DNA of 64,000 nucleotides from Halobaculum magnesiiphilum (GTDB lineage Archaea; Halobacteriota; Halobacteria; Halobacteriales; Haloferacaceae). The notes below the pieces were generated by a model. That model was not told the DNA's origin and made no database searches. It worked only from the letters and a program-made list of their open reading frames with translations. The stretch lies in contig NZ_CP081958.1 of NCBI RefSeq assembly GCF_019823105.1, positions 1,240,001 through 1,304,000 of the forward strand, read 5' to 3'. Shown one piece after another: positions 38,003 through 56,660 of this stretch; position 1 is the stretch's first letter, and every line of letters begins with the position of its first letter. Position numbers and translations under genes: made by a program.

Positions 38003-39148
38003 CTACGCCGACAGCGGCCCCTCGCGACGGGCGACCGCGCGGAAGCGCTCGCCGTGGACGCCCCCGTCGGCGAGGGCCTCCGGGATCCGCTCGTGAAGCC
38101 ACGACCCCGGCGCGGGCTCGCCGTCGAAGCCGTCGCGGCGATGCTCGGCGGGGAGGTAGCGCTCGTGGGTCGGGAGCCGCTCGTACAGCGGGACGCCGCC
38201 CGCCTCCGCGACCGCGCGGAGTTCCTCCAGCGCGGGCCACGCGTAGTCGGGATTGACGTAGTCGTCCGTCACCGGCGAGACGCCGCCCAGGTCGTCGACG
38301 CCGCAGTCGAGCAGGTCGCCGACGGGTGCGAGGTTCGGCGGCGACTGCACCGACACCGCCGCGGGCAACGCGGCGCGGGCCATCGCGGTCACCCGCCGCA
38401 TCGTGTCGGTCGAGGGCGCGTCGTAGTCGGAGCGCTCGTTGGGCACGACGGGCTGAATTATCACCTCCTGCACGTGGCCGTACCGCTCGTGGAGGTCGCG
38501 GATCGCCAGCAGCGACTCCGCCCGGTCGCGCCAGTCCTCGCCGATACCGACGAGGATCCCCGTCGTGAACGGCACCCGGGCCTCCCCCGCTGCGCGGATC
38601 GTGTTGAGCCGCTGGCCCGGCGTCTTTCGCCGGCCGCCGGCGTGGGCGGCCACGTCCGCGGTCGTCTCCAGCATCACGCCCATCGAGGCGTTCACCTCGC
38701 GCAGGCGACGGAACTCCGATTCCGTCAGGTCGCCGGGGTTCGAGTGCGGGAGCAGCCCCTCCTCCAGGGCGATCTCGCAGGCGCGCTCGTGGTAACCGAC
38801 GATCGAGTCGTAGCCCCACTCGGCCAACTGGTCGTGGATCGCGGTGTAGCGCGCGTCCGGCTTGTCGCCGAAGGTGAACAGCGCCTCCGTGCAGCCGGCG
38901 TCGGCGCCGACGCGACACCGCTCTCGTACCTCCTCGGCCGACAGGAGGCTCGCCTCGCCGGGCACGTCGTAGTAGGTGCAGTACGTGCAGGTGTAGCGGC
39001 AGGCGGTCGTCAGCGGGACGAACACGTTCCGGGCGAACGTCAACTCGGAGGCGGCGGAGACGTCCGCGGGGCCGACGGACAGCAGGCGCTCGACGTCCTC
39101 GTCGGCGACCGTCACGTCGAGGTCGTACTCCGCGGCGCCCGGGAACAC
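38003..39148 (-). CDS. cofG: 7,8-didemethyl-8-hydroxy-5-deazariboflavin synthase subunit
   Basis: A 381-residue radical-SAM enzyme of coenzyme F420 synthesis that works with CofH to build the deazaflavin ring (Fo). The cluster motif C-x3-C-x2-C is Cys50, 54 and 57 in CRYTCTYC. Other CofG features: FTFGDKPDARY, LPHSNPGDLTESE, PPNLAP. The start GTG at 39148 fits the family length and has a T-rich box 27 bp upstream; a longer reading to 39292 is Arg-rich noise. cofC, usually adjacent in haloarchaea, is 2.5 kb upstream on the same strand. Confidence 0.93.
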   Translation of the reverse strand: MFPGAAEYDLDVTVADEDVERLLSVGPADVSAASELTFARNVFVPLTTACRYTCTYCTYYDVPGEASLLSAEEVRERCRVGADAGCTEALFTFGDKPDARYTAIHDQLAEWGYDSIVGYHERACEIALEEGLLPHSNPGDLTESEFRRLREVNASMGVMLETTADVAAHAGGRRKTPGQRLNTIRAAGEARVPFTTGILVGIGEDWRDRAESLLAIRDLHERYGHVQEVIIQPVVPNERSDYDAPSTDTMRRVTAMARAALPAAVSVQSPPNLAPVGDLLDCGVDDLGGVSPVTDDYVNPDYAWPALEELRAVAEAGGVPLYERLPTHERYLPAEHRRDGFDGEPAPGSWLHERIPEALADGGVHGERFRAVARREGPLSA

Positions 39149-39170
39149 GCCGTGAGGTCGCCGACCGAGG

Positions 39171-39180
39171 GGCAAAAGCG
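39171..39180 (-). promoter_or_regulatory. T-rich promoter box for cofG
   Basis: Minus-strand CGCTTTTGCC centred 27 bp before the GTG at 39148. Confidence 0.4.
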
Positions 39181-39435
39181 AGTCGGTCGCGGGGAAGGCG
39201 TCGGGGATCAGGCGAGGAAAATGGAGGGAGGGGGCGAACCGCCGCGGCGACGACCCGAACCGGGCGTGGCGACGGCGACGCGTCCGAGCCACGGCGGTGG
39301 CGCGCGGCGGTCGCGCTCCGTCGCGACCGCGAGCGCGCGAGGGACGAGTACCGCAGCGACCGCAGGGAGCGAGGAACGCAGTCGGCTGGGGAGGAAGTGG
39401 CTGTCACGTGACGGTGCCTGTACCCGATCGGCCGG

Positions 39436-39690
39436 CTCGAACCGAACCTCCCCGTCGACTCGAACCGAACCTCCCCGTCGACTCGAACCGAACCTCCCCG
39501 TCGACTCGAACCGAACCTCCCCGTCGACTCGAACCGAACCTCCCCGTCGACTCGAACCGAACCTCCCCGTCGACTCGAACCGAACCTCCCCGTCGACTCG
39601 AACCGAACCTCCCCGTCGACTCGAACCGAACCTCCACGCCGACTCGAACCGTAACTCGGCGCCGACTCGTACCAGAACTCCACGCGGTCG
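39436..39690. repeat. 23-bp tandem repeat (minisatellite), ~11 units
   Basis: Eight identical 23-bp units run head to tail from 39436 to 39619, followed by three increasingly diverged units starting at 39620, 39643 and 39666. Each unit contains the palindrome GTCGAC at its junction and the segment TCGAACCGAACC. There are no spacers, so it is not a CRISPR. The period is not a multiple of three and the unit has no stops, so every frame reads through with a 23-residue periodic peptide. Confidence 0.97.
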
Positions 39691-39772
39691 CCGACAGTCA
39701 CGACTCGACTCGATCCACGACACGGATCCGCCACCACAACCGATACCCGGCGCGCGGCCGAGTGAAAGAGCG

Positions 39773-40441
39773 ATGACCGACATCGACACCACCGACGTCG
39801 AGGGCCCCCACGGCGGACAGCCCGTCCGCCACGCCGGCGCCGACCTCGCCGACGCGAACGCGGCGGTCGTGATGGTCCACGGCCGCGGCGCGACCGCCCG
39901 CAGCATCCTCGGGATGGCCGGGGAGTTCGGCACCGACTCGGTCGCCTACCTCGCGCCCGCGGCCGCCCGCAACACCTGGTACCCCCACTCGTTCATGGAG
40001 GAGACGACGAGGAACCAGCCGTACCTCGACTCCGCGCTCGCGTTCGTCGGGCGCGTCGTCGACGCCGCCGCCGACGCCGTCGGCCGCGAGAAGGTGCTCC
40101 TGCTTGGTTTCTCGCAGGGCGCCTGCCTCTCCTCGGAGTGGCTCGCGCGCAACGCCGACCGCTTCGGCGGCCTCGTCGCCTTCTCCGGCGGACTCATCGG
40201 CCCGGAGGGCACCCCCCGCGAGTACGACGGCGACCTCGACGGCACGCCCGCGTTCCTCGGCTGCTCGGACGTGGACCCGCACATCCCGCTGGAGCGCGTG
40301 AAGGAGACCACCGAGGTGCTGGAAGGGTTGGGCGCCGACGTGGACGAGCGCATCTACGAGGGCATGGGCCACGGCGTCAACGAGGACGAGCTGAACGCCG
40401 CGAAGGGGATGGTGACGAGCCTCGAACTCGCCGGCGAGTAG
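39773..40441 (+). CDS. phospholipase/carboxylesterase, alpha/beta hydrolase
   Basis: A 222-residue serine hydrolase of the phospholipase/carboxylesterase (YpfH-like) family. The nucleophile is Ser114 in LGFSQGACLS; the acid is Asp near 170 in CSDVDPHIP and the His is near 203 in GMGHGVN. The oxyanion-hole loop is VMVHGRGATA at 33-42. It probably cleaves short-chain or lysophospholipid esters in the cytosol; no signal peptide. The ATG at 39773 follows directly after the repeat region, so its promoter may lie within or beside the minisatellite. Confidence 0.9.
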   Translation: MTDIDTTDVEGPHGGQPVRHAGADLADANAAVVMVHGRGATARSILGMAGEFGTDSVAYLAPAAARNTWYPHSFMEETTRNQPYLDSALAFVGRVVDAAADAVGREKVLLLGFSQGACLSSEWLARNADRFGGLVAFSGGLIGPEGTPREYDGDLDGTPAFLGCSDVDPHIPLERVKETTEVLEGLGADVDERIYEGMGHGVNEDELNAAKGMVTSLELAGE

Positions 40442-48903: not shown

Positions 48904-49737
48904 ATGAACGCGACGAAGCTGCTCGCGGTCGCCCTGGCGACGCTCCTCGTGAGCGCCGGCGTGGGCGCGGCCGCGACGAGTACCGGAACAGGGGCGACGA
49001 CCGCCGCGACCGACGCGTCCGTCGACGAGTACGAGGCCGACGCCTCCTACGAGAACGGGACGGCCACGCTCACCGTGAGCGCCAACGGAAGCGGCGTCGA
49101 GGGGCTGTCCGTCGTCCGTGACGACGAGTCGCTCGGCACCACCGACGACGACGGCTCGGTCGCGTTCGACGTGAACGCCTCCGAGACCGAGGAGGTCGAG
49201 CTCGACGTGACCGGCGAGAACGTCTCCGGCGAGGTCGAGCTCACCTTCGAGAACGGCTCGGTGACCGTCGAGGAGGCCGAGTTCGAGTCCGAGATCGACG
49301 AGGAGGAGGCGAACGAAACCGACGAGAACGTGACCGACCGTCGCGGTCCCGCGATCGGCCTGCCCGAGGACGCCTCGGACAACGCGAAGGCCGTGCTCTC
49401 GGCCATCAACGCGTACCTGAACGGCGAGTCGAACGCCAGCACGCTCGGCGAGGCCGTCAGCTCGGTCGCCGGGAACGGCCCCGACGGCGAGCGCGGCCCG
49501 CCCGCCGACGTGGGTCCCGACAGTGACGACGGGAACGAGAGCGACGACGGTGACGACCGCCGTGGTCCGCCCGAGGACGTCGGTCCCGACAGCGACGACG
49601 AGAACGAGACCGACGACGACGACCGCCGCGGTCCCCCCGAGGACGTCGGTCCCAACGGCGACGACGACGAGGACGACGACGAGGACGACGACGACGCCCG
49701 CGGTAACAACGGCACCGGGAACGGCAACGGTCGATAA
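48904..49737 (+). CDS. secreted acidic protein with RRGPPEDVGP repeats
   Basis: A 277-residue exported protein. A signal peptide covers about 1-25 (Ala-rich). Residues 40-135 form an Ig-like beta domain (ENGTATLTVSANGSGVEGLSVV). From about 185 three Asp-rich repeats follow, each with RGPPxDVGP and then an acidic spacer; the protein ends in a poly-Asp tract and GNNGTGNGNGR. There is no membrane anchor, so it may be released. The ATG at 48904 fits a TATA-like TTCTTTA about 28 bp upstream; a GTG at 48901 is possible. Confidence 0.78.
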   Translation: MNATKLLAVALATLLVSAGVGAAATSTGTGATTAATDASVDEYEADASYENGTATLTVSANGSGVEGLSVVRDDESLGTTDDDGSVAFDVNASETEEVELDVTGENVSGEVELTFENGSVTVEEAEFESEIDEEEANETDENVTDRRGPAIGLPEDASDNAKAVLSAINAYLNGESNASTLGEAVSSVAGNGPDGERGPPADVGPDSDDGNESDDGDDRRGPPEDVGPDSDDENETDDDDRRGPPEDVGPNGDDDEDDDEDDDDARGNNGTGNGNGR

Positions 49738-55287: not shown

Positions 55288-56660
55288 CGATCGTCGGCAG
55301 TCGGATCCGCCAGTCGCTCGCGGGCGAGCGCCTCCGCGCGGCGGAGCACCTCCCGAACGGGGACGCCCGCCTCGCGCGCGGCCGCCGCGGCGTCGTCGTA
55401 CTCGGCGCTCACGTCGTACACGTCGCCGTCGGCGTCGCTGGCGACCTTGACCGGGATCTCGTGGGGGGCGCCGTCCTCCGCAAGCGCGAGTTCGACGGTC
55501 TCGAAGCGACGCTCGGCGATCCAGCGGTGGCTCGCGCCGCCCTCGCGAACGCCGAGCGTGCCGGTCTCCTCGGCGAGCCGGCGGGCGACGCGGTCGGCGT
55601 CCTCGGGCCGGCAGATCACCTTCACGAGATGGCCCGGACGCGACTTCTTCATCGTCGCCGGGAGGATCGACACGTCGCGGGCGCCCGCGTCGGCGAGGGT
55701 GTCCTGGAGGCCGCCGAGCACCTCCGGGGCCGCGTCGTCGAGGTTCGTCTCCAGCACGGCCACGTCGTCGCGGACGAGCCCCGAGCGCTCGGCCTCGCCG
55801 ACGACCGCCCGGAGCACGTTCGGGCGGTCGGGGAACGTCCAGCCGCCGGCGCCGTACCCCGACTCCTCGACCCGAAGCGAGGGGAGCCGCTCGACGCCCT
55901 CGGCGTACTGGGCGAGGATCGCCGCGCCCGTCGGCGTGAGCAGCTCGGCGTCGACGGGACCGCCGCGCAGCGACCAGTCGGCGCGCTCGGCGATCTCGAC
56001 GACCGCGGGCACCGGGACCGGGTAGACGCCGTGGCTGAAGTCGACCTCGCCGTCGCCCGTCGCGAGCGGCGTCGTCACCACGCGGTCGGGGTCGAGGTCG
56101 TCGAACAGCAGGCACGCGCCGACCACGTCCGCGATCGCGTCGTCGGCGCCGACCTCGTGGAAGTGCGTTCCCTCCAGATCGGTTCCGTGAACCGACGACT
56201 CCGCCTCGCCGAGGATCTCGAACGTCGCGAGCGCGTCCGCCCGGACCGACGCCTGGAGGTCCATCCCCTCGACGACCTCGACGACCTCGGCGTACGTGCG
56301 CTGGGGGCCCTGGCCCTCCGCGTTGTGGTCGTGATCATGGTCGTGGCTGTGGTCGTGGCTGTGGTCGTGGTTGTGATCGTGGTCGTGACTGTGATCGTGG
56401 CTGTGGTCGGAATCGTCGCCGTGGGTGTGATCGTGAACCGGTTCGTCGCCGTGGGCGGGATCGTCGTCGGCACCGAGGTGTCGCACCCGAGCGCGGGTGC
56501 TCGCGATGCCGTTCCGCTCGGTCGGTTCGAACTCGTAGCGCACCGGGAGCGCGTCCCCCACGGGCGCGAGCACGTCGGGCTCGGCGCCGGCGGCGACGAG
56601 CGCGCCGAGGATCATGTCGCCGGCGGCGCCCATCCGGCCGTCGAAGGCGATCGTTCGCAT
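55284..56660 (-). CDS. larC: nickel insertion protein LarC
   Basis: A 458-residue member of the LarC family, which inserts nickel into the pyridinium-based nickel-pincer cofactor for lactate racemase and related enzymes. The start FDGRMGAAGDMILGAL and HFHEVGADDAIADVVG plus TTPLATGDGEV are family motifs. Residues 70-112 form a His/Asp-rich tract with over fifteen His, a probable nickel store or sensor. larB and larE are not in the window. The downstream zinc-ribbon gene is coupled. Confidence 0.92.
   Translation of the reverse strand: MRTIAFDGRMGAAGDMILGALVAAGAEPDVLAPVGDALPVRYEFEPTERNGIASTRARVRHLGADDDPAHGDEPVHDHTHGDDSDHSHDHSHDHDHNHDHSHDHSHDHDHDHNAEGQGPQRTYAEVVEVVEGMDLQASVRADALATFEILGEAESSVHGTDLEGTHFHEVGADDAIADVVGACLLFDDLDPDRVVTTPLATGDGEVDFSHGVYPVPVPAVVEIAERADWSLRGGPVDAELLTPTGAAILAQYAEGVERLPSLRVEESGYGAGGWTFPDRPNVLRAVVGEAERSGLVRDDVAVLETNLDDAAPEVLGGLQDTLADAGARDVSILPATMKKSRPGHLVKVICRPEDADRVARRLAEETGTLGVREGGASHRWIAERRFETVELALAEDGAPHEIPVKVASDADGDVYDVSAEYDDAAAAAREAGVPVREVLRRAEALARERLADPTADDR

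Follow-up and report, generated by a model that had tools for sequence, protein, structure and literature searches.

A 23-bp tandem array lies in a Halobaculum chromosome between the divergent genes cofG and an alpha/beta-hydrolase ("esterase") gene, and its length differs by exactly eight units between two species. With a probability of roughly 0.8 we consider it to be a non-coding minisatellite, which goes back to an ancestral short repeat, was recently expanded in one lineage and most likely serves no function under selection. Neutrality of the array, and replication slippage or unequal exchange as its mechanism, are what we infer. Unless a genome or locus is named, coordinates refer to the window, the whole stretch of 64,000 nucleotides that was analysed.

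Structure and setting of the array

The following features were assigned in and around the spacer:

38003..39148, minus strand: cofG, 7,8-didemethyl-8-hydroxy-5-deazariboflavin synthase subunit (TIGR03550, 5.9e-126), GTG start at 39148
39170..39189, minus strand: promoter-like block of cofG, genus-conserved (AAAA..GAGTCGGTC, present in 10 of the 11 genomes)
39294..39432, plus strand: dispersed structured element, truncated copy with the usual 3' domain missing; adjoins the array on the left (aligned copies)
39436..39619, plus strand: eight identical 23-bp units CTCGAACCGAACCTCCCCGTCGA (TRF and in-register reading)
39620..39688, plus strand: three diverged units with 2, 5 and 8 mismatches, of which the last is identical in the sister genome G006
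39730..39748, plus strand: promoter-like block of the hydrolase gene, genus-conserved (core CACCACAACCGATACC)
39773..40441, plus strand: alpha/beta hydrolase of the phospholipase/carboxylesterase family, the "esterase" (PF02230, 3.5e-17)

Reading in register gave eleven head-to-tail units of 23 bp at 39436-39688. Units 1 to 8 are identical, unit 9 carries two mismatches, unit 10 five and unit 11 eight. TRF called the array at 39436-39678 (period 23, 10.5 copies, 95% matches, without indels) with a score of 421, the highest in the window. Eight identical and three diverged units had been described in an earlier note on this DNA and are confirmed. The right end given there, 39690, lies two bases too far, as unit 11 ends at 39688; the 23 bases that follow differ from the unit at 13 positions. 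The palindrome GTCGAC, which had been proposed for each junction, is present at eight of the ten, and the other two, both among diverged units, read GCCGAC.

A search of the whole own genome for the unit with up to three mismatches yielded nine matches inside the array and two single sites elsewhere, whereas the reversed pattern gave none. Thus, the array is far beyond chance. Across 20 sampled stretches of 20 kb, corresponding to 0.4 Mb of the 2.97-Mb chromosome, the highest score of any other tandem array was 218. Two further arrays were called within the window, at 49492-49692 (period 69, 3.0 copies) and at 56325-56409 (period 42, 2.0 copies); they are probably coding repeats, because their periods are multiples of three.

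Several simple explanations were rejected. Long frames do cross the array, but its period of 23 is not divisible by three and the genus shares the hydrolase start, which argues against a coding function. A structured single strand is not indicated either, since six units, folded as DNA, were no better than shuffles on the two strands (z −0.32 and −0.10). A plasmid-borne or widespread repeat was discarded as well: there was no plasmid match, and among 170 family genomes the unit plus nine bases is confined to the one from which the window comes. That the number of identical units is wrong in the assembly is a practically negligible explanation. Eight identical units (184 bp) exceed the span of some short reads, but the chromosome was assembled as a single contig, and the diverged right-hand units together with three units in G006 (see below) show a tandem repeat at this place regardless.

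For cofG the GTG start at 39148 was chosen because the N-terminal codons and the upstream block are alike across the genus; conservation of this block over the 11 genomes was read by eye. The core of the hydrolase block is exact in seven of the 11 genus genomes and altered in four. On account of their distance to the gene starts, and by likeness to haloarchaeal promoters, both blocks are presumed to be BRE/TATA core promoters of leaderless transcripts. About 245 bp separate the array from the cofG block on one side and 41 bp from the hydrolase block on the other; at these distances the array is part of neither, and it overlaps neither gene.

The repeat in related genomes

All 11 genus genomes examined retain the divergent cofG/hydrolase pair. 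The spacer between the two genes measures 624 bp in the window and 438 bp in G006. In the remaining nine genomes it spans 110-260 bp and contains no array, no unit start CTCGAACC and no GTCGAC. Among these genomes the array is lineage-specific: the gene pair and the promoter-like blocks are conserved, the array and its palindromes are not.

The nearest relative is G006, the hydrolase of which is 98% identical. Its spacer harbours three diverged units with seven, four and eight mismatches to the window consensus, none of them containing GTCGAC, and the last one corresponds letter for letter to unit 11 of the window. Identity at a lag of 23 within this stretch amounts to 30 of 46 positions, compared to a mean of 14.0 for shuffled sequences, and none of 5000 shuffles was as high. 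Thus, the tandem structure in G006 is not due to chance. When the two spacers are aligned, the array carries 184 gap positions, which equals 8 x 23, and all gap positions between 39290 and 39772 fall inside it. The flanks align gap-free, with 142 of 146 identical positions on the left and 80 of 84 on the right. It follows that a short 23-bp tandem repeat is older than the split of the two lineages, and today they are eight units apart.

If the eight identical units had been present before the split, 2.5 substitutions would be expected among them in the window lineage from the divergence of the hydrolase gene at all positions, 4.6 from its third positions and 13.4 from the cofG-side spacer. The probabilities of finding no change at all are 0.08, 0.01 and 1.5e-6, respectively. 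A recent expansion, as suggested in the earlier note, is thus supported by eight identical units here versus three diverged ones in G006, exactly eight units apart. We regard it as likely rather than proven, because identity between the window genome and G006 is patchy, and the eight identical units are less telling of recency if local divergence is low. Furthermore, part of the difference may be due to units lost in G006 instead of all being gained in the window lineage.

The common ancestor of the window lineage and G006 would have possessed a short 23-bp tandem repeat that had already diverged, and replication slippage or unequal exchange in the window lineage would have brought this repeat to eleven units. 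The identical units would be the youngest, with the old ones at the right edge. Since the last unit is identical in both species, the right-hand units are better seen as old, already diverged seeds than as decayed new copies, the view taken before. The proposed growth from the left holds only insofar as the rightmost unit is shared with G006 and therefore old; units may have been added anywhere within the identical block.

Multi-site operators consist of short sites repeated near a promoter, and it had been suggested that the array is one, with a regulator binding each unit, for example at the junctional GTCGAC, and controlling the hydrolase gene and/or cofG. This would fit the location between two divergent promoters, close to the hydrolase block, and the identity of eight units. 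Nevertheless, such a role is very unlikely. The sites of an operator should be conserved together with the promoter, but the array is missing from nine of the 11 genus genomes, in which the gene pair and the promoter blocks are present, and the palindrome is lacking in the three units of G006. GTCGAC is also short and common, with 152 occurrences in the window versus 117 expected from a first-order Markov model. In B-DNA 23 bp correspond to about 2.2 helix turns, so sites at this spacing would not face one side.

A variable tract (contingency locus) was the other function suggested, in which cells differ in unit number and one or both promoters are thereby tuned via their spacing. It is unlikely, if somewhat less so than an operator. 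Two close species with otherwise alignable flanks do differ by eight units, and strains of a haloarchaeon differ in the copy number of short tandem repeats, as described for the "polyrepeats" of Haloquadratum (PMC3119063). However, the array lies outside both promoter-like blocks, and nine genomes of the genus manage without it.

The dispersed element beside the array

To the left of the array lies the 139-bp truncated copy of a dispersed element. A query with 39290-39435 had 44 matches in the own genome. A 15-base core with up to two mismatches was found 49 times, versus five times for the reversed control, and an 18-base core under the same conditions 40 times, versus none for the control. 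Among 60 relatives, 38 had one or more matches to the latter core, with a maximum of 108 in G101 (controls 0 or 1 per strand). Fuller copies are located around position 1500 of the fetched loci L189, L191, L195 and L199. The usual 3' domain consists of GGGTGGGACTGAAAGGGGC, a helix strand, a variable middle, the second helix strand and GGGGCTTTC, and is absent at 39294-39432.

The 3' end is present in 29 of the 30 copies that were fetched from the own genome. All 12 tested helix positions pair in 25 of these, eleven in two and fewer in two, although the 5' strands of the helix, which is 12-14 bp long, comprise 25 distinct sequences across the own copies. When strands of different copies were mixed, at least eleven pairs were reached in 0.1% of the trials; G-T pairs were allowed, and the control is somewhat strict, as a shift of up to two bases was permitted for true partners and none for mixed ones. 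Eleven or twelve pairs were likewise counted in 23 of 24 copies of G006 and in 14 of 20 copies of G101 having a 3' end, with six and ten of 30 copies, respectively, left out because they had no readable 3' end or exact core. The hypervariable helix therefore shows strong covariation, be it in RNA or as a DNA cruciform.

By a crude gene finder based on codon bias, 21 of the 27 copies with a left neighbour sit after a gene on the same strand. Flanks are shared with one of 30 fetched G006 copies for at least 22 of 30 own copies, a minimum because further copies exist beyond those fetched. One copy of the own genome, L192 (G000:C1:1847212), is missing from the corresponding site of G006 (G006:C1:1800349-1801063), so copies are gained or lost. 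This empty site was also considered for defining the element boundaries, but the spacer is too diverged to read the insertion point. Head-to-head pairs of elements, a few hundred bases apart, were observed near 1363000 and 2737200 of G000:C1 (L183/L184 and L202/L203), where one side carries a different, second type of 5' part (GTTCGTGCACACC...).

In two own copies, at 39397-39432 and at G000:C1:1375149-1375184 (L116), an alternative tail GTGGCTGTCACGTGACGGTGCCTGT...CGATCGGC replaces the usual 3' domain. The same tail occurs twice in G006, once in G005 and in none of the eight other genus genomes. In both species the array begins 3 bp past the end of the truncated copy, as if the element's broken 3' end had been the starting point of tandem growth. 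This origin is highly improbable, because among 30 fetched loci (L115-L144), some of which are partial or chance matches to the element, only the copy of the window precedes such an array, and L116, which carries the same tail, has none.

A run of 141 bp at 39281-39421 is identical between the window and G006, whereas 20 of 137 aligned positions differ in the rest of the cofG-side spacer. Conservation of element copies was tried as proof of function and rejected: over 19 orthologous pairs, those of 22 linked copies for which the partner in G006 contains the 15-base core without mismatch, element identity was 0.919, compared to 0.905 for upstream and 0.920 for downstream flanks. In the absence of a general excess of conservation over these pairs, the identical run may reflect patchy divergence or exchange.

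Rfam gave no match for eight element loci at E values up to 1 and none for the window at gathering scores. The element might represent an RNA family that has not been described so far, or a mobile element of the palindrome-associated type. By description, it is possibly related in kind to the PATEs of Haloquadratum, which are palindrome-associated elements without terminal inverted repeats (PMC3119063). Without an Rfam family, this element merits separate study more than the array does.

Possible roles and known systems

A neutral minisatellite growing by slippage or unequal exchange probably accounts for everything seen, and there is no sign so far of the array acting as a switch. Situated in the spacer between two divergent core promoters, the array would most likely only add spacer length, without selected function. 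It is conceivable, if decidedly doubtful, that the array serves as a tunable spacer, in which a unit number differing between cells shifts the balance between the promoters of cofG, a gene for the F420 cofactor, and of the hydrolase gene, possibly together with the adjacent element copy, the 141-bp stretch of which is unchanged in G006.

A literature search, with most subscription papers beyond reach, revealed no published account of the 23-bp array or of the neighbouring element. The array represents a clean case of non-coding minisatellite growth in archaea, with old diverged seeds followed by local expansion in one lineage, and could serve as a typing marker if it is also variable among strains.

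Unlike what would be expected of multi-site operators, the array is not conserved along with the promoter and its palindrome is missing in G006. With CRISPR arrays the array shares short repeated units in an archaeal chromosome, but CRISPR repeats are separated by unique spacers, whereas the 23-bp units directly abut each other. The "polyrepeats" of Haloquadratum are likewise short tandem repeats of haloarchaea whose copy number differs between close genomes; there, the example unit is a 6-mer and strains are compared (PMC3119063), as opposed to a 23-bp unit and a comparison of species here. The array fits prokaryotic satellites or minisatellites, defined as a minimum of four tandem repeats of 10-200 nt each (PMC6749651), a definition covering eleven units of 23 bp. 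According to that study, repeat lengths in multiples of three, i.e. coding repeats, predominate in Halobacteria, in contrast to the non-coding array with its period of 23. Like the satellites described there, the array is short overall, species-specific and not spread over the genome (PMC6749651), and its length changes between related genomes, with eleven units in the window, three in G006 and none in nine others.
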